38,862 bases of DNA from Campylobacteraceae bacterium (GTDB taxonomy: Bacteria; Campylobacterota; Campylobacteria; Campylobacterales; Sulfurovaceae). The stretch lies in assembly GCA_027081405.1 (NCBI GenBank), contig JALWKO010000064.1:1-38862 (forward strand). Reading direction: 5' to 3'. Shown piece by piece: positions 3,975 through 37,072 of this stretch. The position numbers were made by a program, and so were the translations under genes. The notes beneath the pieces were generated by a model. That model was given only the letters and a program-made list of their open reading frames with translations, had not been told where the DNA came from and did no database searches. Each line of letters starts with the position of its first letter. The first letter of the stretch is position 1.

Positions 3975-5708
3975 ATGATCAAAGACATTGGCAAACTTCG
4001 CTATCTCCTGAGCCGTCGGGACCGCCGGATATTGTGGGGTTTGGTCGTTTTTTCGATTCTGGTATCTTTGCTGGAGATGGTAGGGGTTTCGGCGATCATG
4101 CCCTTCGTGGCGGTGGCCGTCGATTTCGACAAGATTCAGGAGACCTGGTATTTTCGTACCGTTTACGAGGCGTTTCATTTCAGCTCTCCCGTCCATTTTG
4201 TCACCGCTTTTGGGGTGGTGCTCATTGTGTTTTATATCTTCCGCAGCCTTATCAATCTGGTTTATTTCTATGCGTTGGCCCGGTTTTCGCAGGGGCGTTA
4301 TCACCGCATCGCCTATCGGCTCTTTGAAAACTACATCGGGATGAGTTACCGGGCCTTTCTGGATAAAAACAGCTCCCAGATGATGAAAAGCATCATCAAC
4401 GAAGCCCAAAACGTCGTAGAGATCCTCTCGTTCGCCCTTTTCATGCTCAGCGAGATTTTCGTCACGCTTCTTATTTACGGGATGCTTCTGTTTGTCAACT
4501 GGAAAATGACACTGCTTTTGACACTTTTTCTGGGTGTGAACGTAGCGCTCATCAAATGGACGGTTTCACCAAGGATCAAGCAGGCAGGTCAGGAGCGTGC
4601 GAGGTTTCAAGAGCGCTTCTATGAGATCCTCTCTTCGACGTTCGGAAATTTCAAGATCATCAAGCTCAAATCCAACGACAAAGAGATCTTGGATCGTTTC
4701 CGGGAGGCAAGCTGGGGCTATGTGCGCTCCAATATCAAAAACCAGGCATTGGCACAATTCCCCAGACTTTTCCTCGAAGCGATCGGTTTTTCCCTCATTG
4801 CCGTGGTCGTGATCTATCTGGTTTTGAAGTATCAGACCGATATCCGTGCCGCGCTGCCGCTGCTTTCGGTCTTTATCCTGGGGCTCTACCGTCTGATGCC
4901 CAGTATCAACCGCATACTCAATTCGTACAATGATATCCTTTTCCGTCTCGAAGCGTTGAAAATCGTTCACAATGAGCTCATTTATGAACCGGAAGATTTG
5001 GGTGATGAAGCGATTGGATTTCATCATGCGATTCATCTGGAAAACGTGGGGTTCGAATATGTAGAGGGCAAAACGGTCCTCAGGAACGTGGATCTGACGG
5101 TACGGAAAGGGGAGCGCATTGGGATCGTAGGGGAGAGCGGCAGCGGCAAGTCTACGCTGGTGGATATCATCGCCGGGCTCTATCGTCCCAGCCAAGGCAG
5201 GGTCCTCATCGACGATGTGGAGCTGAGCGAAAGTAATGTCAAAAGCTGGCGCCGCAAGATCGGCTACATCCCCCAAAGCATCTATCTTTTCGACGGCACC
5301 GTGGCCCAAAACGTGGCCTTTGGCGAAACGATCGACGAAGAGCGGGTCAAGGAGGCGCTGGATAGGGCCAATATCCTCGATTTTCTCGAAACTCATTTCG
5401 AAGGGATCCATACCCGCGTAGGCGAGGGGGGCATCAAACTCAGCGGCGGACAAAAACAGCGCATCGCCATAGCCAGAGCGCTCTATGCGGACCCGGAGGT
5501 TCTCATCCTCGATGAAGCAACCAGTGCACTAGATACGGAAACCGAGGCTAAAATAATGGATGAGATCTATCGGGCGAGCGAGAACCGGACCCTCCTGATC
5601 GTGGCCCACCGGCTCAGCACCCTTTCGGGGTGCGATATCATTTATCGGGTGGAAAACGGAAAACTTCTTTTTAACAGCTTAGAAAACAAGAAATACATCA
5701 TGAAATAA
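3975..5708 (+). CDS. pglK: ABC-transporter flippase for lipid-linked oligosaccharide (PglK-like)
   Basis: PglK flips undecaprenyl-diphosphate-linked glycan from the cytoplasmic to the periplasmic face. The 577-aa protein has an N-terminal half with about six membrane segments (for example IMPFVAVAV, FGVVLIVFYIF, LIAVVVIYLVLKY) and a C-terminal ATPase with Walker A GESGSGKST (386-394), signature LSGGQKQR (from 489) and Walker B VLILDEATSALD. It is a half-transporter that should work as a dimer. ATG 3975 follows an in-frame stop at 3963 and has only a weak ribosome-binding site; the 72-bp gap upstream shows nothing clear. The last about 15 codons turn AT-rich, the start of the first foreign-looking segment. 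Confidence 0.9.
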   Translation: MIKDIGKLRYLLSRRDRRILWGLVVFSILVSLLEMVGVSAIMPFVAVAVDFDKIQETWYFRTVYEAFHFSSPVHFVTAFGVVLIVFYIFRSLINLVYFYALARFSQGRYHRIAYRLFENYIGMSYRAFLDKNSSQMMKSIINEAQNVVEILSFALFMLSEIFVTLLIYGMLLFVNWKMTLLLTLFLGVNVALIKWTVSPRIKQAGQERARFQERFYEILSSTFGNFKIIKLKSNDKEILDRFREASWGYVRSNIKNQALAQFPRLFLEAIGFSLIAVVVIYLVLKYQTDIRAALPLLSVFILGLYRLMPSINRILNSYNDILFRLEALKIVHNELIYEPEDLGDEAIGFHHAIHLENVGFEYVEGKTVLRNVDLTVRKGERIGIVGESGSGKSTLVDIIAGLYRPSQGRVLIDDVELSESNVKSWRRKIGYIPQSIYLFDGTVAQNVAFGETIDEERVKEALDRANILDFLETHFEGIHTRVGEGGIKLSGGQKQRIAIARALYADPEVLILDEATSALDTETEAKIMDEIYRASENRTLLIVAHRLSTLSGCDIIYRVENGKLLFNSLENKKYIMK

Positions 5709-5723
5709 AATTAGGAAATGTTT

Positions 5724-6596
5724 ATGGTATTTATTGAGAAACAAAAAAACAGATGGAAAATTTTAAGAGAATCACAAAACCCCCTGAAATTACTTTTTGC
5801 GTATATCCTTAGAAGACTCCATCTTTCTCATTTTTTTATTATCGATAAGTATTCATACAAAATGAGATTTTACCCGAGTGCACTACTAATGCATTATTGG
5901 GTAAATCCAAATATTAGAGAAGATGAAACAATTTTTTTAAGAAGACTAGTAAAGTATGGTTCGGTGGTGCTTGATATTGGTGCAAACGTGGGAACGCTGA
6001 CACTTCCACTGGCTTGCCAAGTAGGGAGTCGGGGGAAAGTGTATTCGATAGAAGCTAGCCCTAAAACATTTCGTTATTTGAAGGGAAATGTCGAGCTAAA
6101 CACTCAGTTGAACAATATAATTTTATTTAATACGGCCATAGGCGATAAGTGTGGAATAATACATTTTTCGAACCTGTCTTCGGACGATATGAATAATGTA
6201 GTTGGTAAAGATGTCCCCCATGCGTTTGAGGTTCCTGTCAGTACCTTGGACGATATAAAAAGATCAAACGGTATCACGAAAATCAGGTTATTGAAGGTAG
6301 ATATTGAAGGATACGAACCGTTTGCATTCATGGGGGCAAAGGAGACCCTGAATATCACAGAAATAGTCTTTTTCGAGAGTTGGGAAGAGCATTTCAGAAA
6401 GTATGGATATTCGACTGTAGATGTCATCGGTATTTTGAAGAGGCATGGTTTTTTTGTATACAAAATCAACAAAGACTATTCTCTGAAAGAGATCGATAGT
6501 GATTATATATCTTTAGAGTGCGAAAACCTGATCGCCTTCAAATCGAAAGAGTTTCTTCGATGTATCTATGAGAATATCCAGAATGAAAACAATTAA
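5724..6596 (+). CDS. FkbM-family SAM-dependent methyltransferase
   Basis: A 290-aa protein with the FkbM methyltransferase pattern: VVLDIGANVGTLTLPLA (SAM-binding motif I, about residue 80), then VYSIEASPKTFRYLKGNVELN, and the later KVDIEGYEPFAFMGA typical of FkbM. Enzymes of this family usually O-methylate sugars or polyketides; here a glycan residue is the likely target (inference). ATG 5724 is preferred over ATG 5718 because AGGA at 5713-5716 is correctly spaced only for 5724. The gene is much more AT-rich than its neighbours and I found no CGATCG site in it, both pointing to recent acquisition. A 98-bp gap with a weak CAACG/CGTTG hairpin follows. Confidence 0.85.
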   Translation: MVFIEKQKNRWKILRESQNPLKLLFAYILRRLHLSHFFIIDKYSYKMRFYPSALLMHYWVNPNIREDETIFLRRLVKYGSVVLDIGANVGTLTLPLACQVGSRGKVYSIEASPKTFRYLKGNVELNTQLNNIILFNTAIGDKCGIIHFSNLSSDDMNNVVGKDVPHAFEVPVSTLDDIKRSNGITKIRLLKVDIEGYEPFAFMGAKETLNITEIVFFESWEEHFRKYGYSTVDVIGILKRHGFFVYKINKDYSLKEIDSDYISLECENLIAFKSKEFLRCIYENIQNENN

Positions 6597-6694
6597 GAAA
6601 GTTTTTAAGAATAGAAAAATGGGCAACGTTTCTATCGTTGACTGAATAATAGTTTGCTCCATGGAGTCGGAGCCTTGAAAAGGATATTAGGATA

Positions 6695-7555
6695 ATGGAT
6701 GCCAATCGATTGCTTTTGACGATTTTTACGCCGACTTACAACCGGGTCCATACGCTGCATCGGGTTTATGAGAGTATATGCAATCAGACATTGCAAAAAA
6801 AAGATGGTGAGTATCTTTTCGAATGGATCGTCGTCGACGACGGATCGACGGACGGGACGGAGGATCTGATCGAAAAATGGAAAAACGAATCGGATTTTCC
6901 CATTGTCCATATCCGTCAGGAGAACAGGGGCAAAGCGGCCGCCGCTTTGCGGGCAATCCCCGTAGCGAGGGGAGAACTGTTCGTTTTTGCCGACAGTGAT
7001 GACCGATTCGTGCCGGAGACTTTTGAGACCTTTTATGTACTATGGATGGGATTGACGGAAAAAGAACGGGAGCGATGTGACGGTATCGGAGTGCTGTGCC
7101 AGGACCAGCACGGAAACCGGATCGGAAACGACTATCCGATAACCGGTAGGCTCGTTCCCACACAAGAGGCGGTTTTCAAATGGAGAAAGCTTGGGCTTGG
7201 GGAGACCTGGGCGGCGCTCAAAACCGAAAATCTCAAAAAATCTTTCGTCATCCCGGAGGAGGCGAGAGGGCTTCGCTTCATCCCGGAAAGTTTCTTTTGG
7301 ACGCGGATCACTTTGGAACAGGGGAAATATTCTCTTTTTTGCAATAAGGTTCTACGGATCTATTATCGTGAAGGGGAGAGTCTTAGTACTGGCATTCGCA
7401 ACCGCTACCCCGAAGGGTTTCTCTTTGAATCCAAATGGTTTGTCACCCATTATTCCCATCTTCTTTTCAAACATCCTGGGTTGTATCTGAAACACCTGCT
7501 AAAATACCTCTACTATTCATTCAAAATAAATTGTACAATCAAGACATTTTTTTGA
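6695..7555 (+). CDS. Family 2 glycosyltransferase
   Basis: A 286-aa cytoplasmic GT-A enzyme. The N-terminus LTIFTPTYNRVHTLHRVYES, the nucleotide-binding WIVVDDGSTDGTEDLI (about residue 46) and the DXD-type FADSDDRF (about residue 98) are diagnostic of GT2. Donor and acceptor sugars cannot be read from sequence; its place between pglK and pglB suggests it adds a residue to, or branches, the lipid-linked glycan. ATG 6695 has AGGA a few bases upstream. Base composition is moderate, between that of the GC-rich pgl core and the AT-rich inserts on either side. Confidence 0.9.
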   Translation: MDANRLLLTIFTPTYNRVHTLHRVYESICNQTLQKKDGEYLFEWIVVDDGSTDGTEDLIEKWKNESDFPIVHIRQENRGKAAAALRAIPVARGELFVFADSDDRFVPETFETFYVLWMGLTEKERERCDGIGVLCQDQHGNRIGNDYPITGRLVPTQEAVFKWRKLGLGETWAALKTENLKKSFVIPEEARGLRFIPESFFWTRITLEQGKYSLFCNKVLRIYYREGESLSTGIRNRYPEGFLFESKWFVTHYSHLLFKHPGLYLKHLLKYLYYSFKINCTIKTFF

Positions 7556-7572
7556 ACGGGAAAAGGAGATTC

Positions 7573-8352
7573 GTGTATCCAGTACTTGTTGCCAGTCATG
7601 CCAAAGCATCGGATCTGTGGCCGATCGCCCACCATTTCATCCGAAAAAACTGGCCGGATCACCCTCCGATCTATCTGGGGGCCAACGGAGGGGCGAACAT
7701 TGACAAAGTTCCAAAGGGGTGGCAACTGATCGATCGGGGCGAAGACCGTTCGTTTTCCCGCAGTTTGATGGACTATGTGGATGCCGTCGAAAGCGAATAC
7801 CTCATTTTGATGCTCGACGATTTCGCCATTCTGGATCCGATGTCGAACGAGCGGTTGGAGGAGGCCTGCCGTTTTGCCAAAAAGCATGAAGCCGTCTACC
7901 TGCGGTTGACTCCGAACCCTCCCGGGGACATTCCGTTCGAGAGTGGCTATACACAGATCGTGATCGATAAGCGTCCTCCTTATGCCACCTCTTTGCAGAT
8001 GGCAATCTGGAAGCGTGATTTTTTGCGAACACTGCTTGAATATGACTTCAATCCCTGGGAATTCGAGGTCCGTGGAGGCAAGACGGAGGAAGCGTTGGCC
8101 AACGCGTCTCGGTTTTTCGTCGCTCGGGAACCCTTGATCCGGTATACTCGTTTCGTGGAAAAAGGGAGATTTTTCCCATTTGTACATCACTGGAAAGACG
8201 AAGGTATCCCTACTGATACGACACGGGGCTATTGGACCGAAGAGGAAGTGCGACGGATGCAGGGTGATTGGATACGACGGACCATCCGGAAAATCGTGCC
8301 CCGGACCTGGAGAAACCGTATCCGGGTCAGGTTGGGGCTATCTGAATTATAA
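7573..8352 (+). CDS. Uncharacterised glycan-locus protein, possibly a GT-A-like glycosyltransferase
   Basis: I do not recognise this family with certainty. The 259-aa product begins YPVLVASHAKASDLWPIAHHF, has YLILMLDDFAIL near residue 77, which resembles a GT-A nucleotide-sugar/metal site, and SLQMAIWKRDFLRTLL near residue 140, similar to segments of other glycosyltransferases; the C-terminus is basic (WIRRTIRKIVPRTWRNRIRVR), possibly for membrane contact. GTG 7573 is chosen as start because GGAG lies at 7565-7568 and conservation-like sequence begins there; the frame is open further upstream, into the end of the GT2 gene, but that part looks unlike protein. Role in glycan assembly is inferred from position only. 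Confidence 0.6.
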   Translation: MYPVLVASHAKASDLWPIAHHFIRKNWPDHPPIYLGANGGANIDKVPKGWQLIDRGEDRSFSRSLMDYVDAVESEYLILMLDDFAILDPMSNERLEEACRFAKKHEAVYLRLTPNPPGDIPFESGYTQIVIDKRPPYATSLQMAIWKRDFLRTLLEYDFNPWEFEVRGGKTEEALANASRFFVAREPLIRYTRFVEKGRFFPFVHHWKDEGIPTDTTRGYWTEEEVRRMQGDWIRRTIRKIVPRTWRNRIRVRLGLSEL

Positions 8353-8377
8353 GTAAATTATTTTTTGGAGAAAACAA

Positions 8378-9109
8378 TTGATTAATCCCTCACCAGTAAT
8401 AGCTTTTGATAAGAAAAGAACCCAATATTATAAAGGTATTAAGATCAAAGCGGATACAGATTTACACAATCAGTTGGCTGATTATATTCTCAAACACTTT
8501 GACAAAGGAATAAAAATTCTGGATTGGGGGTGTGGAGAAGGAGCGCTTTCTCAGAGATTGAAAGATATGGGATGCAATGTGTTGTCGGTTGACATAGATG
8601 AAAAAAATTTCAAAGCTGACACCCCTTTCATAAGACTTGATTTTAATGATGAAAAGCAGCTTGATGAATTTATTAATGAGTATAAAAAAAGATTTGATCT
8701 AATTTTGGGAGTTGAGGTGATAGAGCATATAAAATCACCTTGGAAATACATAGAAAATATTTATAGACTGTGTGGCGATAATACATCGGTTATAGTAACT
8801 ACACCGAATGTAGCAAATTGGTGGGGTAGATTTTGGTTTTTTATCAAGGGAGAATTGTGGGGGTTTTCTAACGAGGGATGGTATGATCCTGGTCATATAA
8901 ATCCAATACTTGATTTTGAGATTAGAAATATTCTAAGAGAAAATTGTTTTGAAATAATCGATTTTTTTAATGGAGGGAAATTACCATATATATGGCTATA
9001 TAACTGGAAAAGATTTTTGGTGAGTTTGGTCATCTTGCCTTTTCAGCCATTTATAAAGGGCATAAAAAGGGGCTGGGTTAATTGTTATGTTTTCAAAAAA
9101 AAGTGTTAA
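8378..9109 (+). CDS. Class I SAM-dependent methyltransferase
   Basis: A 243-aa UbiG-like methyltransferase: ILDWGCGEGALSQRL (motif I, about residue 48), VLSVDID (motif II), FDLILGVEVIEHIKSP (motif post-I/IV region) and a downstream VIVTTPN. Substrate unknown; sugar methylation is plausible from context. The start is TTG 8378, supported by GGAG at 8367-8370 with 7-nt spacing; no in-frame ATG lies near the N-terminus. The gene is strongly AT-rich and opens a second foreign-looking segment that ends inside the next gene. Its stop is separated by one base from the next ATG (9111). Confidence 0.82.
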   Translation: MINPSPVIAFDKKRTQYYKGIKIKADTDLHNQLADYILKHFDKGIKILDWGCGEGALSQRLKDMGCNVLSVDIDEKNFKADTPFIRLDFNDEKQLDEFINEYKKRFDLILGVEVIEHIKSPWKYIENIYRLCGDNTSVIVTTPNVANWWGRFWFFIKGELWGFSNEGWYDPGHINPILDFEIRNILRENCFEIIDFFNGGKLPYIWLYNWKRFLVSLVILPFQPFIKGIKRGWVNCYVFKKKC

Positions 9110-9110
9110 G

Positions 9111-10208
9111 ATGAATATAGTTTTTGTAATTTCGTCGCTTGGAACTGGGGGAGCCGAGAGAACATTAACATTGATCGCAAATAGTCTATCAGATAAACAT
9201 AGAGTTAAAATTATCACTTTTTCGGAGGTTAATCCTGTATATCATATTAATGACAATATAGAAATTGTACATCTTAATCTACCCAACTGCTCAAAAAGTG
9301 TTTTTTGTTGGATTATTAGTAACATACGGAAAATATTTGATTTGAAAAAAGCTCTAAATGAATCAAAAAGCGATGTAAATATATCTTTTTTGATACATAC
9401 GAACATATTCACAATTATTGCCTCTAAAATAAATGGGCAGAAAATAATTGTTTCAGAAGATGTGGAATACAATTACTATAAAAATGACAAGATCTTGTTT
9501 GCAACTAGAAGAATAATATATAGATTAGCCAATCATGTTGTGGTAAAGACCTTCTCAGATAGTAAAAACTATGTCTTCTTAGATAGAGTAAGCGTCATAA
9601 AAAATCCGCTGCCGAAATTATCGAGTATCAATCATGTGCAATGCATCGAAAAGAAGCCAATTTTATTTGCAGCAGGAAGGCTTGAGCATCAGAAAGGGTT
9701 TGATACACTTATTAGATCCTATTCGAAAATAAGAACAAGCTGGAAACTCTATATAGCAGGCGAGGGCAATGAAAGAAAACACCTGGAAGAAATGATAAAA
9801 AAATATTCTTTGGAGGATCGAGTTATATTATTGGGCAGGATAGAGAATATATTTGATTGGTATAAAATGGCTTCAATCTTTGTACTTTCCTCTCGAAAAG
9901 AAGGTTTTGGAAATGTTCTTATAGAAGCAATGTCGATGGGGTGCGCCGTGGTGAGTTTCGACTGTCCCTACGGTCCCGGGGAGATCATCGAGGACGGCGT
10001 CAACGGGATCCTGGTCGAAGATCAAAACGAAGAGAAATTGCGGGAAGCGTTGGAGCGTCTGATCGACGATGCGGAGCTGAGGCATAGACTGGGGGAAGAA
10101 GCGAAAAAGGCACGGGAGAATTATTCGATCGAAAAAATCGGCGGAGAGTGGGAACGGCTTATCCGGGAAGTTGCAGGGGACAAGAGCCATAGGGGGCAAA
10201 ATCGATGA
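9111..10208 (+). CDS. Family 4 glycosyltransferase with mosaic base composition
   Basis: A 365-aa GT-B enzyme. N-terminal MNIVFVISSLGTGGAERTL is the typical acceptor-domain opening; the C-terminal donor domain has LFAAGRLEHQKGFDTLI and the E-X7-E motif EGFGNVLIE, followed by EAMSMGCAVVSFDCPYGP. ATG 9111 is preferred to ATG 9087, which would overlap the upstream gene by 23 bases. GC content changes abruptly inside the gene: 30% at 9841-9900 and 63% at 9961-10020, with the step near 9931, immediately after the E-X7-E codons. The protein reads without interruption, so the gene appears functional despite the chimeric DNA. Sugar specificity unknown. Confidence 0.9.
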   Translation: MNIVFVISSLGTGGAERTLTLIANSLSDKHRVKIITFSEVNPVYHINDNIEIVHLNLPNCSKSVFCWIISNIRKIFDLKKALNESKSDVNISFLIHTNIFTIIASKINGQKIIVSEDVEYNYYKNDKILFATRRIIYRLANHVVVKTFSDSKNYVFLDRVSVIKNPLPKLSSINHVQCIEKKPILFAAGRLEHQKGFDTLIRSYSKIRTSWKLYIAGEGNERKHLEEMIKKYSLEDRVILLGRIENIFDWYKMASIFVLSSRKEGFGNVLIEAMSMGCAVVSFDCPYGPGEIIEDGVNGILVEDQNEEKLREALERLIDDAELRHRLGEEAKKARENYSIEKIGGEWERLIREVAGDKSHRGQNR

Positions 10209-11314
10209 TTCGAATCGTGTTGGCGATCCGATCGCTCGACATCGGTGGTGCCGAACGGCAGTTCATCGAGCTGGTAAAAGGGATCGACAAAACGCGATTC
10301 GAGGTAACGGTATGCACGATGTACGGTGGCGTCCAAGAACCGATCGTGCGGGAGATTCCCGGTATCACATACCACAACCTGGGGAAAAGGGGCCGGTACG
10401 ACATTTTCGACTTTTCTTGGAAATATCGGAGACTTTTGAACGAAGTGCGGCCCGACGTGATCTATTCGTTCATGGGAGAGATGAATCTCTTTTCGCTCTG
10501 GTGCAAACCCAAAAATACCAGGCTGATATGGGGATTTCGCGCTTCCGATATGGTTCTTTCCAAATACGGGAAAATGGCCCAACTCCTTTTTTGGCTCCAG
10601 AAGAAATTCTCCTGCAGGGTCGACAGGATCATCGCCAACTCCCATGCCAGCGTCGCTTTTCACGAAACGAACGGATTTTGTATGGAACGGGCGGTAGTGA
10701 TCCCCAACGGCATCGACACTGAACGGTTCTGCAGGGACATGGGAAAACGAGAAACGTTTCGAAAACGATACAATCTTGCAAAGAGCGACATCGCGATCGG
10801 GATCGTCGCCCGCATCGATCCAATGAAAGGGTATCCGGTACTGGCACAGGCGGCAAAAGCGCTGCTTGTAAAGTATGTAAATGTGAAGTTTTTCGCCGTC
10901 GGGGATGGGGATCCGGCTATCAAAAACGAATGCGAAGCGATCCTCGGAGAATTTAGCGGTTCCCGATTTGTCTGGCTCGGAAGACGGGAAAACATAGAAG
11001 AGATCTACAGTGGACTGGATGTCGTCGTCTCTCCATCGCTTTTCGGGGAAGGGTTCAGCAATTCCATCGCCGAGGCGATGAGCTCCGAAGTGCCGTGTGT
11101 CGTGACCGATGTGGGGGACAGCGCCGTTATCGTTGGGGATACGGGGATTGTCGTGCCTCCGAATGATCATAAAGCACTTTCTAAAGGGATTGAGAAGATG
11201 ATGCAGATTGATGTATCGAAATTAGGAAAGAGAGCAAGAGATAGGATAAAGGAAAACTTCTCCATTGACAAGATGATACATAGAACAGAAAGGGTCATTC
11301 GTGAAATTAGCTGA
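10205..11314 (+). CDS. Family 4 glycosyltransferase with AT-rich 3' end
   Basis: A 369-aa GT-B glycosyltransferase. It opens IRIVLAIRSLDIGGAERQF, has GIVARIDPMKGYPVLAQA in the donor domain, and E-X7-E as EGFSNSIAE with EAMSSEVPCVVTDVGD after it. ATG 10205 overlaps the previous stop (ATGA). Most of the gene is GC-rich (63% at 11101-11160), but from about 11161 it falls to 35% (21 of 60 in both 11161-11220 and 11221-11280) and continues AT-rich into the next gene. The change lies about 85 bp after the E-X7-E codons, as if the 3' end came together with the downstream methyltransferase. Substrate unknown. Confidence 0.9.
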   Translation: MIRIVLAIRSLDIGGAERQFIELVKGIDKTRFEVTVCTMYGGVQEPIVREIPGITYHNLGKRGRYDIFDFSWKYRRLLNEVRPDVIYSFMGEMNLFSLWCKPKNTRLIWGFRASDMVLSKYGKMAQLLFWLQKKFSCRVDRIIANSHASVAFHETNGFCMERAVVIPNGIDTERFCRDMGKRETFRKRYNLAKSDIAIGIVARIDPMKGYPVLAQAAKALLVKYVNVKFFAVGDGDPAIKNECEAILGEFSGSRFVWLGRRENIEEIYSGLDVVVSPSLFGEGFSNSIAEAMSSEVPCVVTDVGDSAVIVGDTGIVVPPNDHKALSKGIEKMMQIDVSKLGKRARDRIKENFSIDKMIHRTERVIREIS

Positions 11315-12116
11315 TTCCCATAATGAAAAACGTTTTGAATTTGGAAAAAATTGGTCAAATTTTCTGAAGAACCTATCAGAAGAACAAATTGAGAATGCAA
11401 AAAAGGATCTGAAGGATTGGCTTGGCGATATAAAGGGAATGACGTTTTTGGATGCCGGTAGCGGCAGTGGCATTCATAGTTTGGCTGCCAGGATGTTGGG
11501 TGCAAAAGTATATAGCTTCGATTACGATCCGCAGAGTGTTGCGTGCACGAAAGAGCTAAAGAATAGATTTTTCCCCAATGATCCTGATTGGAAAATCGAG
11601 CAGGGGAATGTGCTCGATCAATCCTATATGGAGAATCTAGGGGAGTTCGATATTGTTTATTCTTGGGGGGTGTTGCACCATACAGGGGATATGTGGAAAG
11701 CCTTAGAGTATATAACGATTCCTCTAAAAGAAGAAGGAAAACTATATATCGCAATTTACAATACTCAAGTTTATTGGACGAAATATTGGACATTTGTTAA
11801 AAGAACGTATAATAGCAATGTGGTAATGCGATATTTCTGGACCATATTTTATATTGTATTCAACACTACTAAAGGTGCCATAAAAGACCTTTTGATGCTA
11901 AAAAATCCTTTGACAAGATATAAAGAGTATAAGAAAAATAGAGGCATGTCGATCTATTATGACTTGATTGATTGGATCGGCGGATATCCATTTGAAACCG
12001 CAAAGCCTGAAGATATTTTTGATTTTTATAAGAAGAAAGGCTATATATTGGAAAAACTATATACGGCGAATGGTGGAATTGCCTGTAATGAATTTTTGTT
12101 TATAAAAGAAGAATAA
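11301..12116 (+). CDS. Class I SAM-dependent methyltransferase
   Basis: A 271-aa methyltransferase with MTFLDAGSGSGIHSLAARML (motif I, about residue 48), VYSFDYDPQSV (motif II) and FDIVYSWGVLHHTGDMW (motif IV region); the C-terminal half is hydrophobic and basic, perhaps lining a lipid- or glycan-binding pocket. The GTG start at 11301 overlaps the end of the preceding glycosyltransferase by 14 bases. It is AT-rich, has no CGATCG, and shares its composition with the 3' end of the upstream gene, indicating they arrived together. Substrate not determinable; sugar methylation is likely from context. Its stop abuts the asnB start. Confidence 0.85.
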   Translation: MKLADSHNEKRFEFGKNWSNFLKNLSEEQIENAKKDLKDWLGDIKGMTFLDAGSGSGIHSLAARMLGAKVYSFDYDPQSVACTKELKNRFFPNDPDWKIEQGNVLDQSYMENLGEFDIVYSWGVLHHTGDMWKALEYITIPLKEEGKLYIAIYNTQVYWTKYWTFVKRTYNSNVVMRYFWTIFYIVFNTTKGAIKDLLMLKNPLTRYKEYKKNRGMSIYYDLIDWIGGYPFETAKPEDIFDFYKKKGYILEKLYTANGGIACNEFLFIKEE

Positions 12117-13943
12117 ATGTGCGGAATAGCCGGATTGACCCGAAACGATCCCGACCTTTTGGGGAGGATGCTCGCTTCCATCGCCCATCGGGGGCCGGAC
12201 GATCGGGGAGAATTTTTCGACCGGGGGTTGAGTCTGGGCCATGTGCGCCTCTCGATCCTCGATCTCAGTCCCGCCGGCCATCAGCCGATGGAGTTCGGAA
12301 ACCTGGTGCTGGTCTACAACGGCGAAGTCTACAACTTCCAAGAGATTCGCAAGGAGTTGAAGGCCGGGGGGTATCGTTTCGATTCCGACTCCGATAGCGA
12401 AGTGGTCCTCAAAGCATGGCACCGTTGGGGCGAGGAGGCGCTGCAGAGATTCCACGGAATGTTCGCCTTCGCCGTATACGACAAAACAAAGCGCTGCCTC
12501 ACCCTCTGCCGGGATCGGGTAGGGGTCAAGCCGCTCTATTACCTTGATCGGCCCGATATCTTCGCCTTCGCAAGCGAGCTGCGGGCACTCATGCCGATCA
12601 GCCGCAAGACGATCGACCGTATGGCGCTGGCGCAGTTTTTTACGATCGGCTACATTACCGACGATCAGGCCATTTTCGACGACGTTCGCAAAGTCCCCCC
12701 GGCCCACATCCTCCGCTACGACCTGGAAAGCGGGCACAGCGAACGGGTTCGTTATTGGCGGGTGGAGGAGCATTTCAAGCCTTCGGCCAAGAGTGAAGCG
12801 GAGCTGATCGACGAACTGGAAGAGCGACTGATCGAGGGCATCAAGCTTCGGATGGTCTCCGACGCGCCGGTGGGGGGTTTCTTAAGCGGCGGAGCCGATA
12901 GTTCATTGGTGAGCGCCATCTTGCAAAAGCACTACGGCGATATCCACACTTTCACCATAGGTTTCGCCGAATCCAAGTATGACGAGTCGGGCTACGCCGC
13001 GGCGGTCGCCAGACATTTGGGGACCGAGCACACCCAGGAAATTCTGGGAGCCGATCGGGCCAAGGAGATCCTTCGATCGTTCGTCGAGATCTACGACGAG
13101 CCCTTCGGAGACAGCAGCGGGATCCCTACCTATCTGGTCAGTCAAGTCGCCAAAGAAAACGGCGTCAAAGTGGTCCTCAGCGCCGATGGGGGAGACGAGC
13201 TCTTTTGCGGTTACGAGCGGTACTGGCTCACCCACCGTCTGGGGCGCAAATTCGCCAAACTTCCTTTCCGTAGATATGCCGCATCGATCGTCGAACACTG
13301 TAAACCTTGCCTAATGCGCGTTCCGATCCGAAATATGGAACATAAGCTCGGCTTCTTGCAGAAAATATTGCGTAGCGACGATTGGTTTGCGATCTATCGG
13401 ACGGTCCTCTCCAACTATCGGGACGATCTGGAGATGCTGGGATTGCACTCCCCCGGTTGGGAGGGGGATTCCTTCGCATTCGGCGAAAGGGTCGATCCGA
13501 TGCAGGGGATGATGCTCTGGGATTTCCACCACTATCTCCCCGACGACATCCTAGTCAAAGTCGACCGTGCCACGATGGCCAACTCCATCGAAGGGCGCGA
13601 ACCGCTGCTGGATCACTCCATCATCGAATACGCCGCAAAAATCCCCTTTGAATACAAATACCGAAACGGTGAGAGCAAATACATCCTCAAAAAGGTGCTG
13701 GAGCGGTATTTGCCAAAAGAGCTGATCTACCGCAAAAAGATGGGCTTCGGGATCCCGATGTTCGAATGGTTCCGTAACGATCTGATCGATCTGTTCGATC
13801 GCTATTTCACCGATGACGATGTTATCGATATGGAGTATCCCCGTGCCCTGCTTCAGCGATTTAGGTCCGGAGAGTATGTCAACGTCAACAAACTGTGGTT
13901 CGTCCTGGTTTACAAAATGTGGCGGGAGCGGTACCTCGGATGA
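12117..13943 (+). CDS. asnB: AsnB-like glutamine-dependent amidotransferase (asparagine synthase family)
   Basis: A 608-aa two-domain enzyme. The N-terminal glutaminase begins MCGIAGL with the catalytic Cys2; the C-terminal synthetase domain has the PP-loop LSGGADSS (residues 256-263), which binds ATP. Classical AsnB amidates aspartate, but family members within polysaccharide loci amidate uronic acids of the glycan. Because a probable UDP-GlcA epimerase lies in the same locus, uronic acid amidation is the more attractive role here (inference); ordinary asparagine synthesis cannot be excluded. ATG 12117 directly follows the preceding TAA. GC-rich composition returns exactly at this gene. Confidence 0.88.
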   Translation: MCGIAGLTRNDPDLLGRMLASIAHRGPDDRGEFFDRGLSLGHVRLSILDLSPAGHQPMEFGNLVLVYNGEVYNFQEIRKELKAGGYRFDSDSDSEVVLKAWHRWGEEALQRFHGMFAFAVYDKTKRCLTLCRDRVGVKPLYYLDRPDIFAFASELRALMPISRKTIDRMALAQFFTIGYITDDQAIFDDVRKVPPAHILRYDLESGHSERVRYWRVEEHFKPSAKSEAELIDELEERLIEGIKLRMVSDAPVGGFLSGGADSSLVSAILQKHYGDIHTFTIGFAESKYDESGYAAAVARHLGTEHTQEILGADRAKEILRSFVEIYDEPFGDSSGIPTYLVSQVAKENGVKVVLSADGGDELFCGYERYWLTHRLGRKFAKLPFRRYAASIVEHCKPCLMRVPIRNMEHKLGFLQKILRSDDWFAIYRTVLSNYRDDLEMLGLHSPGWEGDSFAFGERVDPMQGMMLWDFHHYLPDDILVKVDRATMANSIEGREPLLDHSIIEYAAKIPFEYKYRNGESKYILKKVLERYLPKELIYRKKMGFGIPMFEWFRNDLIDLFDRYFTDDDVIDMEYPRALLQRFRSGEYVNVNKLWFVLVYKMWRERYLG

Positions 13944-15106
13944 AAAAACGGCTGGCGATTTTGATCTACTCTCTGGCGCCTGGCGGGGCTGAGCGGGTAG
14001 TCGCTACCTTGTTGCCGGAGTTGATGCGGCACTACGAAGTGACGCTGGTATTGATGAACGAGACGGTTTTTTACGAGATTCCCGAAGGGGTGCGTATCGT
14101 TTTTTTGGAGCGATCGGATCCCGAAGAGAACGGAATCAAAAAGCTGCTCAAACTCCCGCTACTGGCTTGGAAATACCGCACATTGCTGCGATATGAGAGG
14201 GTGGATATCTCGCTGAGTTTCATGAACCGTCCCAACTACATCAATGTCATGGCCAAAATCTTCGGAAGCGGTGCGAAAACGGCGATCAGCGAACGGACGG
14301 CGCCCTCGTATCTATATGCCGGATCTTCGTTCAAAGATCGCGTCAACCGATTTCTCATCCGGAGACTCTATCCCCGTGCTGATCGGATCATCCCCAATTC
14401 GCAGTGGACCCGGGAGGAGTTGATCCGGATGTTTTCCGTCCCGGAGGTGAACATCGATGTGCTGTACAATCCGATCGATTTGGAAATGATCGACCGGCAA
14501 AAAGATGTGGCGATCGATCGGGAAAAGAGGCGGTTTACCTTTGTGGCGCTTGGCCGATTCGAACGACAAAAAAATCACGCAATGCTCATCGAAGCGTTTC
14601 ACCGTGCCGATCTGGATGCCGATTTGTGGTTGATCGGAGACGGTGCATTGCGGCCGGATATCGAACGAATGGTACAACGTTACGGCCTGGAGGATCGGAT
14701 CGGGTTCTTGGGGCGTCAAAAAAACCCTTTTGCGTATTTGTCCAAAGCCGATTGCTTCGTTTTCTCCTCCGATTTCGAAGGATTTCCCAACGCTCTCTTG
14801 GAAACCCTGGCATGCGGTCTACCTGCCGTTTCGACCGATTGTCGTAGCGGTCCGCGGGAGATCCTGGCACCCGGCACGGATAGTACGGCTCAGTGTACCG
14901 GGATGGAGCCGGCCGAATACGGAATTTTGGTTCCTCCCGGAGATACGGACGAACTGGCCCGGGCGATGGAAAGAATGTATAATGACGAGAACTTGCGCCG
15001 CCGCTATGCCCAAAAGAGTCGGCAAGGGGTGCATCGTTTTGAAAAAACTCAAATCGCCCGGGAACTCGGCGGGATTTTGAAAAAACTGGAGGATGAGCCG
15101 GTATGA
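13940..15106 (+). CDS. Family 4 glycosyltransferase, PglJ/PglH-like
   Basis: A 388-aa GT-B enzyme with N-terminus KRLAILIYSLAPGGAERVVATLL, closely resembling the PglJ/PglH GalNAc-transferases that extend the N-glycan on undecaprenyl diphosphate at the inner face of the membrane. Donor-domain signatures are FVALGRFERQKNHAMLIEAF and the E-X7-E EGFPNALLE followed by ETLACGLPAVSTDCRSGPREIL. ATG 13940 overlaps the asnB stop as ATGA; an upstream ATG at 13895 would add 15 unlikely residues within asnB. Position just before pglB matches pglJ in Campylobacter. Whether it is PglJ or PglH in function, and whether GalNAc is the donor, is not certain. Confidence 0.88.
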   Translation: MKKRLAILIYSLAPGGAERVVATLLPELMRHYEVTLVLMNETVFYEIPEGVRIVFLERSDPEENGIKKLLKLPLLAWKYRTLLRYERVDISLSFMNRPNYINVMAKIFGSGAKTAISERTAPSYLYAGSSFKDRVNRFLIRRLYPRADRIIPNSQWTREELIRMFSVPEVNIDVLYNPIDLEMIDRQKDVAIDREKRRFTFVALGRFERQKNHAMLIEAFHRADLDADLWLIGDGALRPDIERMVQRYGLEDRIGFLGRQKNPFAYLSKADCFVFSSDFEGFPNALLETLACGLPAVSTDCRSGPREILAPGTDSTAQCTGMEPAEYGILVPPGDTDELARAMERMYNDENLRRRYAQKSRQGVHRFEKTQIARELGGILKKLEDEPV

Positions 15107-17268
15107 AAACAAACCGATCGGATTTTTTGGATGTGGGGGAAGTGCGGCTCTCGGCGGGTACGTTTGCCGTATTGATGCTGATCGCGTATCTTTTTGTCTT
15201 GGCAATACGCTACATCTGGGTCGACTGGGCCTCGGGGTTCCCCCAGTTTCACTGGAACGGGGAGCTGATGATCAACACCAACGACGGCTATTACTGGGGC
15301 GAGGGGGCTAGGGACATTCTCGCCGGGCATCACCAACCCAACGACCTCTCCCCGGTCGATCAGCCCATCGCAATGCTCACGGCGTTCCTGGCCCGGGTGC
15401 TGCCGCTGAAATTCGAGACGATCATCCTCTGGATGCCGGCGGTTTTCGGTTCGCTCCTGGTGGTGCCCGTGATGCTCATCGGCCGGGCGTTGCGGCATGA
15501 TCTGCTGGGCTTTTTCGCCGCGATGCTCGCCGGGATCGCCTGGAGCTACTACAACCGGACGATGGTGGGGTACTACGACACCGACATGCTGACGATCGTC
15601 TTCCCCACCTTCGTGCTCTGGGCGATCATCCAGGCGTTTCTGACCCGGAAGGACGACTGGGCATTCGGTGCCGCACTGATCACGCTGCTTTATGAGTGGT
15701 GGTATCCCTCCGCGGTGCCATTGGTTGCGGGTTTTGCGGGGGTGGCATTGGTGTATACCGTGATTTTCGAGCGTAACGATGCGATAGGGTACCGGGTTGC
15801 GGGATATCTTTTTCTGGCGGCGACCCCGATCGCGATCGGATACAAGGGGGCGCTGCTCGTCGCGGCGTGGGCCCTTTTTCGTTTTTCGGGCAAGGATCTC
15901 GCCCTTCGGATGACCATGCTGTTCCTCCCGGTTACACTCGTTGTTTTCGCACTTTTCGGGGGGTTCGATCCAATCTGGTATCAGCTCAAAGGGTATATTT
16001 TCCGAGAAGGCACAACGGATGTGGAGTCGAACGCGACACTCCATTTCTATGCAGTGAGCAAAACGGTGCGCGAAGCGGGGAAAATCCCCTTTGAGATCTT
16101 CGCCGATCGGATCAGCGGCCATCCGATCACTTTCGTTTTGGCGACGATCGGGTACGTGATGCTTGCGTTGCGGTATCGGGTGATGTGGCTGGCGCTCCCG
16201 ATGGTGGGGCTGGGATTTCTGGCGATGGCCGGGGGGCTTCGCTTCACCGTTTATGCCGTTCCGGTTTTGGCGCTAGGGATCGCTTATCTGGCGCTTTGGT
16301 TCGCCCGCCGGGTCGCGGGGAGTTTCGGGAAAGACGAGCAAGCCGAAGGGAAACTCGAATGGATCGTCACCTTCGTATTGCTTGCTCTCGTGCTCTATCC
16401 AAACATCCGCCATGTGATCGCCTACAAGGTGCCGACCGTTTTTGATGCCAGCGAAGTCAAAGTTCTCGATCGCCTCCACAAAACTGCCGGAAGAGAAGAT
16501 TACGTCCTGGCGTGGTGGGATTACGGCTATCCGATCCGTTACTACAGCGACGTCAAGACCCTGATCGACGGGGGGAAACACACCGGTGACGTCAACTTCC
16601 CCGTCAGTTTCGCGCTGACCCGACCTGAACTTCCCAGCGCAAACATGGCGCGGCTCGATACCGAATATACCGAGTCGGCTTATCGGACGAAGCGATCGGG
16701 GGCCTATCTGGAGATGATGATGGCCGACTACAACGTCTCCGAACCCGATGCGTTCTTGGCCATGCTGGACGATGTGCATTTCAAACTCCCCGCCAAGAGT
16801 CGAGAGGTCTATTACTACCTACCGTTTCGGATGATGGGGATTTTCCCGACGATCGAAAAGTTTAGCGATATCGATCTGACGACGGGGAAAGAACGGCCGT
16901 TGTCGGCCTTTTACGCGCTCCCCAATTTCATCGTCAAAGGCCGGACGATCGTTTTTGGCAACGGGGCTGCGATCGACACCCAAACAGGGACGTTGAATCT
17001 TGGAAACGGGCAAAAGCAGACCCTCAACCGTCTGGTCGTCACCGGCTACGATCGCAGGGGGAAGCTTCATGTAGAGCAGCGGGTGTTCGATCCGGGGGCT
17101 CGATATTATGCAGTGTTGATGAAAAACTACCACCGTTTGCTCCTGATGGATCGGCGGGCGTTCGAGTCGACTTACGTACAGCTTTTCGTCCTCGAACATT
17201 ACGATCCCAAGCTCTTCGAGCCGGTGATCCTCACCCCGATGGCCAAGGTGTATCGCCTGAAAAAGTGA
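15103..17268 (+). CDS. pglB: Oligosaccharyltransferase, STT3 family (PglB)
   Basis: PglB transfers the lipid-linked glycan to asparagine in sequons on the periplasmic side. The 721-aa protein has a multi-spanning N-terminal membrane region and a soluble C-terminal domain. Metal/acceptor-site acidic residues are visible in NTNDGYYWGEG (Asp61) and YYDTDML (Asp159, Asp161). The sequon-binding WWDYG motif is at 471-475, followed by GYPIRYYSD. The stretch LPFRMMGIFPTIEKFSDID resembles the region that binds the +2 Ser/Thr in the Campylobacter enzymes. ATG 15103 overlaps the upstream stop (ATGA), and pglA follows after 4 bases. This gene identifies the locus as general N-glycosylation. Confidence 0.97.
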   Translation: MKTNRSDFLDVGEVRLSAGTFAVLMLIAYLFVLAIRYIWVDWASGFPQFHWNGELMINTNDGYYWGEGARDILAGHHQPNDLSPVDQPIAMLTAFLARVLPLKFETIILWMPAVFGSLLVVPVMLIGRALRHDLLGFFAAMLAGIAWSYYNRTMVGYYDTDMLTIVFPTFVLWAIIQAFLTRKDDWAFGAALITLLYEWWYPSAVPLVAGFAGVALVYTVIFERNDAIGYRVAGYLFLAATPIAIGYKGALLVAAWALFRFSGKDLALRMTMLFLPVTLVVFALFGGFDPIWYQLKGYIFREGTTDVESNATLHFYAVSKTVREAGKIPFEIFADRISGHPITFVLATIGYVMLALRYRVMWLALPMVGLGFLAMAGGLRFTVYAVPVLALGIAYLALWFARRVAGSFGKDEQAEGKLEWIVTFVLLALVLYPNIRHVIAYKVPTVFDASEVKVLDRLHKTAGREDYVLAWWDYGYPIRYYSDVKTLIDGGKHTGDVNFPVSFALTRPELPSANMARLDTEYTESAYRTKRSGAYLEMMMADYNVSEPDAFLAMLDDVHFKLPAKSREVYYYLPFRMMGIFPTIEKFSDIDLTTGKERPLSAFYALPNFIVKGRTIVFGNGAAIDTQTGTLNLGNGQKQTLNRLVVTGYDRRGKLHVEQRVFDPGARYYAVLMKNYHRLLLMDRRAFESTYVQLFVLEHYDPKLFEPVILTPMAKVYRLKK

Positions 17269-17272
17269 GCCG

Positions 17273-18397
17273 ATGCGTTTTGGCTTTCTCTCCCACCTGG
17301 ACGACAATCTCTATCTGTTTCGCCTCCCGATCATGCGAGCGTTGGTGGAGCGCGGTCATACGGTCTATGCGATCGCTCCCAAAGGGAAGCGGTGGGAAGC
17401 GTTCGAATCGGAGGGGATCGTACCGGTGCACTATCCCATCGATCGCCGCAGCGTAAATCCCTTCAAAGAAAAGCAAGCCGTCGATGCGATCTACCGGGCG
17501 ATCGCGCCGTTGCGGCTGGATCTGCTGCATACCTTCACCGCCAAACCCAACATCTACGGCACCATCGCCGGACGCAAAGCAGGGATCGAGCGGATCTACA
17601 ATCTCGTCGAAGGCTTGGGTTCTTTTTACGTCCAGGACGATCTCAAAAGCCGCGCGATGCGCCTTTTGATCGAGCGTCTCTATCGGCGTACGTTCCGACG
17701 CAGCGACGGAGTGGTGTTCGTCAATCGGGACGATCCGGCGTATATGATCGACAAAGGGATCGTCCCACCCGAAAAAGTGACGGTGATCCGCAGCGTGGGG
17801 GTGGATACCGAGGCGTTTTCTCCCGAGCGAGTCGATCGCAAGATGCTTGCCGAACTCAAAGCCCGTTACGTCCCTGGGGATAAACCGGTGGTTTTGATGG
17901 TGGCGCGAGCCATCTGGCACAAGGGGGTGCGGGAGTTTTACGAAGCGGCCGGGCGGCTGGGGGATCGGGCCCGATTCATCCTGGTGGGGGGGATCGATCC
18001 GGGAAACCCCAGTTGCGCCGATGCGGCGTTTCTGCGTTCCGGGGCGGTGGAGTGGGTCGGCGAGCAGCAGGCGATGCGGGAGTGGACGGCCTTGGCCGAT
18101 GTGTATGTCCTCCCAAGCTATCGAGAGGGGGTCCCCAGGACCTTGCTGGAGGCCGCCGCGATGGGCAAGCCGATCGTCGCTACCGACGTGGTGGGGTGCA
18201 GAGAGGTAGTCGAAGACGGGCGAAACGGACTGTTGGTACCGCCCAGAGATGCCGCGGCATTGGCCGATGCCATCGGGCGGCTGTTGGACGATTCCGCGTT
18301 GCGGCAGCGGATGGGGGAGGCTTCTAGGGAGTTGGCCGTGAAGGAGTTCGCGATTCCCCAAATAGTCGAGCAATATTTGCGTTTGTACGGGGTATAG
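17273..18397 (+). CDS. pglA: Family 4 glycosyltransferase PglA (second sugar of the N-glycan)
   Basis: A 374-aa GT-B glycosyltransferase starting [20 protein letters not shown], like C. jejuni PglA, which adds GalNAc to undecaprenyl-diphospho-diNAcBac. Further features are [18 protein letters not shown], typical of this subgroup, [20 protein letters not shown] in the donor domain and the C-terminal [20 protein letters not shown], where the E-X7-E motif spans EGVPRTLLE. It lies between pglB and pglC as in Campylobacter. ATG 17273 is 4 bases after the pglB stop. The gene is dense in CGATCG sites (five at 17341-18180), which is the compositional signature of the host region. GalNAc as donor is inferred by similarity. 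Confidence 0.9.
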
Positions 18398-18399
18398 GG

Positions 18400-19005
18400 A
18401 TGTATTGCCGATGGATCAAGCCGCTGTTGGATCGTGTGACGGCGGCAGTGCTGCTCATCCTCCTCTCCCCCATTATGCTGGTCGTGGCGGGGCTTATCCG
18501 ATGGAAGCTGGGGGGTCCCGTCCTTTTCCGGCAGCGCCGCCCCGGCAAAGATGGTAAAATTTTTACGATATACAAATTTCGTACCATGAGTGACGATCGG
18601 GACGAAAAGGGCGAACTCCTCCCCGATGCGATGCGGCTAAAAGGGATCGGCAAAACGATCCGCGCTTTGAGCCTGGACGAACTGCCTCAGCTGTTCAACG
18701 TGCTGAAAGGGGAGATGAGTTTCGTCGGTCCACGGCCGTTGCTGGAGGAGTATCTGCCGCTTTATACCGAACGCCAGGCGCGCCGCCACGAAGTCAAACC
18801 GGGCATCACCGGCTGGGCGCAGGTCAACGGCCGAAACGCCATCAGCTGGGAGGAGAAATTCGAGTATGACGTATGGTATGTCGACCATTGCTCCTTTTGG
18901 CTCGATCTGAAAATCGTGGCGCTAACGATACGCAAAGTGTTCAAAAAAGAAGGGATCAGCCAGGAAGGAAACGCGACGATGGAGAAATTCAAAGGGAGCC
19001 GATGA
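18400..19005 (+). CDS. pglC: Undecaprenyl phosphate N,N'-diacetylbacillosamine 1-phosphate transferase (PglC)
   Basis: PglC is the monotopic phosphoglycosyltransferase that starts the glycan by moving phospho-bacillosamine from the UDP-sugar to undecaprenyl phosphate on the cytoplasmic face. At 201 aa it is of normal length. It has the N-terminal re-entrant hydrophobic helix [38 protein letters not shown], the catalytic Asp-Glu dyad in [12 protein letters not shown] (Asp93, Glu94), [17 protein letters not shown] and [14 protein letters not shown]. It starts 2 bases after pglA and its stop overlaps the next ATG (ATGA). In Campylobacter pglD follows directly; here six other genes intervene. Confidence 0.95.
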
Positions 19006-28842: not shown

Positions 28843-28857
28843 CGCCCCTTTGGGGCG
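28843..28857. repeat. Inverted repeat covering the mqnA ribosome-binding site
   Basis: CGCCCC (28843-28848), TTT, GGGGCG (28852-28857) form a perfect 6-bp stem. On the mqnA strand the stem contains the AAGGGG sequence just upstream of the start codon, so folding of the mRNA could limit translation. The element begins exactly where the first heptamer tract starts. Confidence 0.6.
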
Positions 28858-29064
28858 AATGAGGAATGAGAAATGAGGAATGTGAAATTTAGGGGCGTTT
28901 CTATGCAACGCTATCAAATGGAGGCGGGACTTTAGTCCCGCATGCAGGGCGAATGCCCTGTTCCCAATGATCAATGACCAATGACCAATGACTTTTCTTC
29001 TGCCGACTGCAAACTGCGACAGCGCTTTCGGTTTCGCACTCCTCACTCCGCACTCCTCACTCCG
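28857..29064. repeat. Composite heptamer/hairpin repeat, copy A
   Basis: Starts with five 7-bp units (28857-28891; GGAATGA-like, ending GAAATTT), then GCGTTTC-TAT-GCAACGC (28895-28911), a 7-bp stem with one mismatch and a 3-nt loop. Further 7-bp-period tracts follow, CAATGAC x4, CTGCNNN x3 and CACTCCT/CACTCCG x4. The last tract is approximately the reverse complement of the first, so the copy is bounded by imperfect inverted heptamers. Confidence 0.75.
28924..28960. repeat. Two tandem perfect hairpins
   Basis: GCGGGACT-TT-AGTCCCGC (28924-28941, 8-bp stem) is followed after three bases by CAGGGC-GAAT-GCCCTG (28945-28960, 6-bp stem). No T-run follows either, so neither looks like a simple Rho-independent terminator on the + strand. 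Adjacent paired hairpins like this resemble REP-type palindromes; they are embedded in repeat copy A. Confidence 0.65.
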
Positions 29065-29104
29065 AAAAGTTGTCGTATTATACAAGGCGGATTGGCCGTT
29101 TGGG

Positions 29105-29110
29105 TATAAT
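29105..29110 (+). promoter_or_regulatory. Putative -10 element upstream of the Moco genes
   Basis: TATAAT in the context GGGTATAATCCCGA, about 200 bp upstream of the moaD ATG. If used, it gives a long untranslated leader that includes the hairpin at 29185-29201. No convincing -35 is seen, as expected in this phylum. Confidence 0.5.
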
Positions 29111-29184
29111 CCCGAAATATGCATTAGCCAGCACACCATCTGTATCGATTATCGGCGGCATGGGCGACACATCCAAAGCCTCGA

Positions 29185-29201
29185 CGCACCCTCCGGGTGC
29201 G
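29185..29201. other. Perfect hairpin in the putative moaD leader
   Basis: CGCACCC-TCC-GGGTGCG forms a 7-bp stem with a 3-nt loop. Flanking ACACA/TGTGT and CCAAA/TTTGG segments could form alternative pairings around it. A structured regulatory leader (for example a cofactor-sensing one) is possible but I see no match to a known riboswitch core. Confidence 0.45.
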
Positions 29202-29275
29202 CCTGTGTTTTGGCTGTGCACCCCTACACACCGAGCATCGACACATCTGACGCACTTTCTACTGCATATTTTTGG

Positions 29276-29281
29276 GATAAT
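29276..29281 (+). promoter_or_regulatory. Putative -10 element immediately upstream of moaD
   Basis: GATAAT in the context TTTTTGGGATAATCG, preceded by a T-rich stretch (TATTTTTGGG) and 27 bp before the moaD start. This spacing suits a short leader, so it may be the main moaD promoter. Confidence 0.5.
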
Positions 29282-29308
29282 CGTTCCGATTTCAGGCAAG
29301 GGGACGCT

Positions 29309-36279: not shown

Positions 36280-36319
36280 CGTCTCTCCTTTTTGTTCTCT
36301 CTTCCAGCACTTTAGCTTT

Positions 36320-36366
36320 TGAAATGACAATTTGGCATAAATATTTCAAAATGAAATATCATTTCA
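36320..36366. promoter_or_regulatory. Nested inverted repeats, putative operator of the S24 repressor
   Basis: The inner palindrome ATATTTCA-AAA-TGAAATAT (36341-36359) has perfect 8-bp arms. The outer pair TGAAATGA (36320-36327) and TCATTTCA (36359-36366) is also a perfect inverted repeat, so TGAAAT occurs four times with alternating orientation. The site lies between the divergent small ORF and the repressor, overlapping probable promoter sequence on both sides. Binding by the S24 protein is inferred. Confidence 0.6.
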
Positions 36367-36415
36367 GGAAAAATGTGCTAAATTTTTAAAAATACATTGC
36401 ACAAAAGGGAAAACG

Positions 36416-37072
36416 ATGAACGATTTTCACGAGATCATTGAGCGGCTCAAGGATATCATTTCGTCCAAAAAGATCGGCGGCAAGGTCTATGACAAAGATG
36501 TAGCGGCGGAGCTTGGGATCGCCCAAGCGACCTTCGCGACGATGAAAAAGCGGGGTTCGATTCCCTACCGGGAGATCATGGAGTTTTGCGCCCGTCGCAA
36601 GATCAGTATCAACTGGCTCTTTTTCGACCAACCCGCCGAAATGCTGATCGAGGAGACCCAGAAGTTTTTCCGGGTCCGGTATTTCGCCGATCTGCGGGCC
36701 AGCGCCGGGGGCGGAGCGGAGGTTTTCGACGAAGGGTACGAGTACATCGACGTGGATCGCACCCTCATCGAGACGATGCTCGGCACCCTTCCCAGCGGAG
36801 AGATCGAAGCGATCCACGTCGAAGGGGAGTCGATGGAACCCACCCTCATGGACGGCTCGATCGTCTTCGTCGACCGGACCCAGACCGATCCGAGTAAGGA
36901 CGGGATTTTCATCGCCTCCACCGCCAACGGGCTCTTCATCAAACGGATCCGACGCCGGGCCGACGGGATGGTGGAGCTGATCTCCGACAACCCTCTCTAC
37001 GCACCGGAGATCCTCTCCCCCGAAGAGGTGCGGATCGTGGGAAAAGTGGTCGGAAACGTGGAGCGGCTCTGA
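36416..37072 (+). CDS. S24-family (LexA/CI-like) transcriptional repressor
   Basis: A 218-aa regulator with an N-terminal helix-turn-helix (DKDVAAELGIAQATFATMKKRGSIP, CI-type) and a C-terminal S24 peptidase. The Ser/Lys dyad is Ser139 in VEGESMEPTL and Lys176 in LFIKRIRR, spaced 37 residues as in LexA. A possible self-cleavage site is Ala97-Gly98 in RASAGGG. Such proteins repress until damage-induced RecA triggers self-cleavage. ATG 36416 follows AAAAGGGA. The palindromes at 36320-36366 probably form its operator, implying autoregulation and control of the divergent 41-codon ORF. It may be a prophage remnant or a stand-alone stress regulator; no other phage genes are near. Confidence 0.88.
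   Translation: MNDFHEIIERLKDIISSKKIGGKVYDKDVAAELGIAQATFATMKKRGSIPYREIMEFCARRKISINWLFFDQPAEMLIEETQKFFRVRYFADLRASAGGGAEVFDEGYEYIDVDRTLIETMLGTLPSGEIEAIHVEGESMEPTLMDGSIVFVDRTQTDPSKDGIFIASTANGLFIKRIRRRADGMVELISDNPLYAPEILSPEEVRIVGKVVGNVERL

Follow-up and report, generated by a model that had tools for sequence, protein, structure and literature searches.

The GT4-family glycosyltransferase gene gtB (10205-11314; 369 aa; Pfam PF13692, PF00534, PF13439) is probably a mosaic produced by recombination in a variable pgl-type locus for N-linked protein glycosylation. The gene lies in a stretch of 38,862 nucleotides (the window), which makes up the entire contig 64 in a genome of 1.93 Mb; gtA, gtB, mt2 and asnB, with the joint and segments described around them, are read on the + strand. 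The first ~318 codons of gtB would be locus backbone common to a sister Nitratifractor lineage. AT-rich DNA of a different origin, probably Campylobacterota, would make up the last ~50 codons and also mt2, the methyltransferase gene that overlaps them, as far as the start of asnB. The crossover would fall at about 11146-11160, directly beyond a conserved GT4 nucleotide-sugar motif, and the 3' end of gtB and its glycan-modifying neighbour would have been exchanged together. The direction of transfer and homologous recombination as its mechanism are what established knowledge of such loci would lead one to expect, and the donor is likewise putative.

The pgl-type locus occupies bases 3975-19005 and runs, in order, through a PglK-like ABC transporter, an FkbM methyltransferase, a GT2, an unknown gene, mt1, the PglH-like GT4 gene gtA, gtB, mt2, asnB, a PglJ-like GT4, PglB/STT3, a further GT4 and a PglC-like transferase. 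The closest locus to it is that of Nitratifractor sp. S013_45 (L003), apparently genome G038, which we used as the sister. The GT4 domains of gtB all score above cut-off (PF13439, 78 bits; PF13692, 95 bits; PF00534, 85 bits), and no equivalog for a specific sugar or linkage was obtained, the best NCBIfam model, TIGR03088, reaching 140.6 bits where its cut-off is 409.

Coincident steps in composition and divergence within gtB

The GC content of gtB falls, as the original prediction had it, from 0.633 in 11101-11160 to 0.350 in both 11161-11220 and 11221-11280. The AT-rich run that follows does continue into the methyltransferase gene and end at asnB: the segment 11161-12120 delimited by GC segmentation, i.e. 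the gtB tail plus mt2 (11301-12116; a SAM methyltransferase gene by Pfam that overlaps the end of gtB by 14 bases), is unbroken at a GC of 0.358, and GC is back to ~0.56 at the asnB-type amidotransferase gene (12117-13943 by annotation), from 12117 onward, in segmentations at all four penalties tried. Upstream lies a GC-richer block (9934-11160; GC 0.532) made up of the gtA 3' end and gtB codons 1-318. A single GC change-point fitted to 9934-12120 falls after base 11161 (2lnL 67; interval 11146-11178), and GC3 is 0.64 over the gtB codons that end by 11160 and 0.38 beyond them.

A GC step within a conserved GT4 gene has to be compared with orthologues, because some of it will be natural, and natural composition does account for part of the size of this one: most orthologues are GC-rich at codon positions 1-2 across the conserved GT4 EX7E/VVTDVGDS block, and this inflates the 60-bp contrast. 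At the same codons the drop is 29 points in the window, compared with a mean of 8 and a maximum of 21 in 28 other gtB homologues; the window has the largest drop of the 29 gtB sequences and is the most extreme in GC3 as well, with third-position GC falling by 0.24 against 0.01 on average in the other homologues. When steps are scored only inside genes, among 353 ORFs sampled from the genome the gtA step ranks 1st and the gtB step 29th; with 28 of these ORFs showing a stronger internal step, the gtB step would by itself be weak evidence, and it stands out because it is followed by 960 bp of AT-rich DNA and matched by a step in divergence. A ranking on GC3 only was left out, as it looked contaminated by wrong-frame ORFs.

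The step in divergence was found by comparison with G038, against which gtB aligns without gaps. As far as 11160 most nucleotide identities lie at 0.75-0.97, and over the remainder of the gene they are 0.57-0.65; the proteins are 80% identical overall, with 85% for the body and 47% for the tail. A change-point fitted to the differences alone, without use of GC, falls at base 11144 (11123-11159), where divergence rises from 14% to 40% (0/2000 permutations as strong), and this interval overlaps that of the GC change-point. Together they place the joint at 11144-11161, in the C-terminal donor domain directly past the EX7E/VVTDVGDS block. The pS/pN values are 0.385/0.071 before the joint and 0.764/0.317 after it, with a synonymous difference of at most 0.61 in every 50-codon block of the body, and a locus-wide segmentation on pS+pN that is blind to GC returns a low-divergence block ending at 9924 and 11143. 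G038 has no GC step at the joint, and the compositional chimera therefore sits in the window.

The GC step, the coincident divergence step and the higher synonymous difference thus make a recombination chimera the most likely reading of gtB. The C-terminal end of the gene is fast-evolving, and it is unlikely that this end drifted AT-rich beside an AT-rich neighbour gene with no recombination at all: such drift would fit the natural GC loss seen here in orthologues and the lower conservation of gtB tails than bodies in nearly all pairs, but synonymous and third-position signals, which are not forced by the protein, step too, and the change-point is sharp. Very improbable is an assembly chimera, in which conserved GT4 sequence led to the joining of DNA from different community members. 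The genome is in fragments (91 contigs) and the joints are close to conserved GT4 motifs, as an artefact of this kind would have it; however, the gtA and gtB frames are both open across the joints, the gtB-mt2-asnB order with overlapping gtB and mt2 is independently present in G038, and the artefact would require several separate misjoins in the space of 4 kb. Given the intact reading frame of gtB across its joint, and from established knowledge of such loci, the chimeric enzyme is probably still functional.

Phylogeny of the gtB tail and a second joint in gtA

In trees of the gtB body the window and G038 are joined at 100/99. The tree of the 51-residue tail does not contain this pair, so that a uniform phylogeny on the two sides of the joint, which would have spoken against recombination, was not recovered; the split falls short of a clean one, with forced common origin giving an AU p of 0.095 and the pair thus not rejected. 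In a regression of tail on body the window/G038 pair lies 2.6 SD low, where the points are non-independent and gtB tails are generally fast-evolving. The tail scores best against the gtB orthologues of AT-rich loci. A paralogous origin of the tail was considered and rejected: gtB orthologues score up to 153 and the gtA of the window only 74.

The neighbouring gene gtA (9087-10208), which is PglH-like by profiles, is itself chimeric, with a change-point at 9931 (9914-9940). Residues 1-274 group with G244, an AT-rich genome (99/97; window+G038 rejected, AU p 0.0024), and residues 275 onward group with G038 (98/99; window+G244 rejected, AU p 0.029), so two trees, each well supported and in conflict with the other, establish the gtA joint firmly. 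To its left, GC, divergence and trees define an AT-rich module (8338-9933; GC 0.320) that comprises mt1 and the gtA 5' part and is nearest G244, where a relative of mt1 directly precedes gtA just as in the window. The original prediction of joints in the C-terminal donor domains of two neighbouring GT4 genes, with GC steps in opposite directions, is thus borne out, for gtA by trees and for gtB by coincident change-points and synonymous divergence.

The two opposite steps may be the two ends of a single event, and a possible though distinctly less probable account is that a 1.2 kb GC-richer piece (9934-11160) from a G038-like relative overwrote the middle of an AT-rich mt1-gtA-gtB-mt2 block. 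The GC-richer and low-divergence blocks have the same ends, as this would predict, and the mt1-gtA-gtB order of G244 is AT-rich throughout; the gtB body pS is also below that of all nine non-pgl window genes compared (0.46-0.69) and low in a wider gene sample that includes a few overlapping ORFs (median 0.54, 10% quantile 0.37). Against it, the gtA 3' part is not similarly low (pS 0.59), the flanks differ somewhat in GC3 (mt1 0.30 and gtA 5' part 0.29; gtB tail 0.38 and mt2 0.37), and the body pS is still inside the sampled range of other genes, so that ordinary descent still suffices to explain the body; low pS was sought as proof of a recent import of the gtB body and was not decisive. We prefer the model in which AT-rich modules were imported into a common backbone.

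Methyltransferase cargo and the proposed exchange route through GT4 genes

The gtA joint bounds a true cargo swap, of which it is the right-hand, GT4-internal end. The left module differs between the window and G038, which has a different methyltransferase as well as a different gtA 5' part, in line with the predicted cargo swaps bounded by GT4 joints. The same expectation fails at the gtB joint, since mt2 is common to both sisters (85% identical, AT-rich in both) and there is therefore no cargo difference across this joint between them. Most of the relatives examined have asnB directly after gtB; among these loci mt2, an occasional insert, stands between the two only in the window and G038. 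In G282, mt2 is found upstream of gtB, separated by spacers from gtA on one side and from gtB on the other, and it is absent from the congeneric G362. The relatives sampled, including the families of G282 and G244 (for mt2) and of G324 (for gtB), yielded no donor in which an AT-rich gtB precedes mt2. Neither a plasmid match that would indicate mobile carriage nor an Rfam match to an RNA feature was found. An additional discordant patch at the mt2 5' end, hinted by segmentation, was rejected: mt2 N-termini are naturally less conserved, with values of 0.60-0.81 in comparable pairs and 0.63 here.

The prediction had further suggested a recurring route of exchange through GT4 genes, and this holds up only in part, with one clear joint in gtA and one probable joint in gtB, which may both belong to a single tract. 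GT4-internal joints at cargo differences elsewhere were not evident in gtB of two congeneric pairs, G228/G182, where gtB identity is uniform, and G362/G282. It is doubtful that methyltransferase modules in Campylobacterota pgl loci have been exchanged repeatedly between distant, compositionally different lineages via crossovers at the GT4 nucleotide-sugar motif, yielding chimeric working transferases; were this so, donor-domain ends and glycan-modifying enzymes would be swapped jointly.

Some further observations concern the locus itself. Each of its three AT-rich segments (5635-6819, 8338-9933 and 11161-12120) holds a methyltransferase gene, namely FkbM, mt1 and mt2, and the FkbM gene of the window is without a match in the G038 contig. 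The proteins of pglJ, pglB and gtD (13943-18394) are only 50-60% identical to those of G038 whereas flanking genes are at 69-95%, which would make the locus core itself either replaced or very fast evolving.

Relation to known systems and other features of the window

Events of this kind are already documented: intragenic recombination in the glycosyltransferase genes of glycosylation systems has been described for pglP in Neisseria (PMC6959607) and for aglJ and aglD in Haloferax (PMC5867893). As in those cases, the window shows within-gene recombination in protein-glycosylation transferase genes; the Neisseria and Haloferax events, however, are within or between close lineages, whereas in the window the parts that were joined are far apart in GC, and the foreign one extends into the neighbouring methyltransferase gene. 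In capsule and LPS switching, recombination changes the content of a contiguous polysaccharide locus (summarised in PMC6959607); there the joints are around the whole locus, and in the window they are inside transferase genes within it. The gene set and order resemble those of the Campylobacter-type pgl locus (PglK, PglH, PglJ, PglB, PglC), and the set is present as PF21436, PF02516 (STT3/PglB), PF02397 (PglC-type) and several GT4 genes; unlike that locus, the window has PglK, PglH and PglJ scores below the NCBIfam equivalog cut-offs and several inserted methyltransferase genes. The gtB event would be a commonplace instance of recombination in a sugar locus that changes fast, a further case from a little-studied lineage. 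If our reading is right, it offers a clear example of the reshuffling of an N-glycosylation locus, in which joints inside the transferases keep the operon in frame while altering 3' domain ends and the methyltransferases attached to them.

Outside the locus, the interval 1598-2847 between accC and an epimerase gene holds a Uma2-family gene together with a nucleotidyltransferase that has a substrate-binding domain; this pair has no match in the corresponding G038 contig, in which accC adjoins the epimerase gene. Two dispersed intergenic repeats (28855-29020 and 29100-29290), without an Rfam match, have copies ~70-95% identical at many sites in the genome and also in several congeneric genomes. 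Finally, a short AT-rich (0.31) intergenic stretch at 36289-36474 separates two GC-rich genes and is probably a divergent promoter region.
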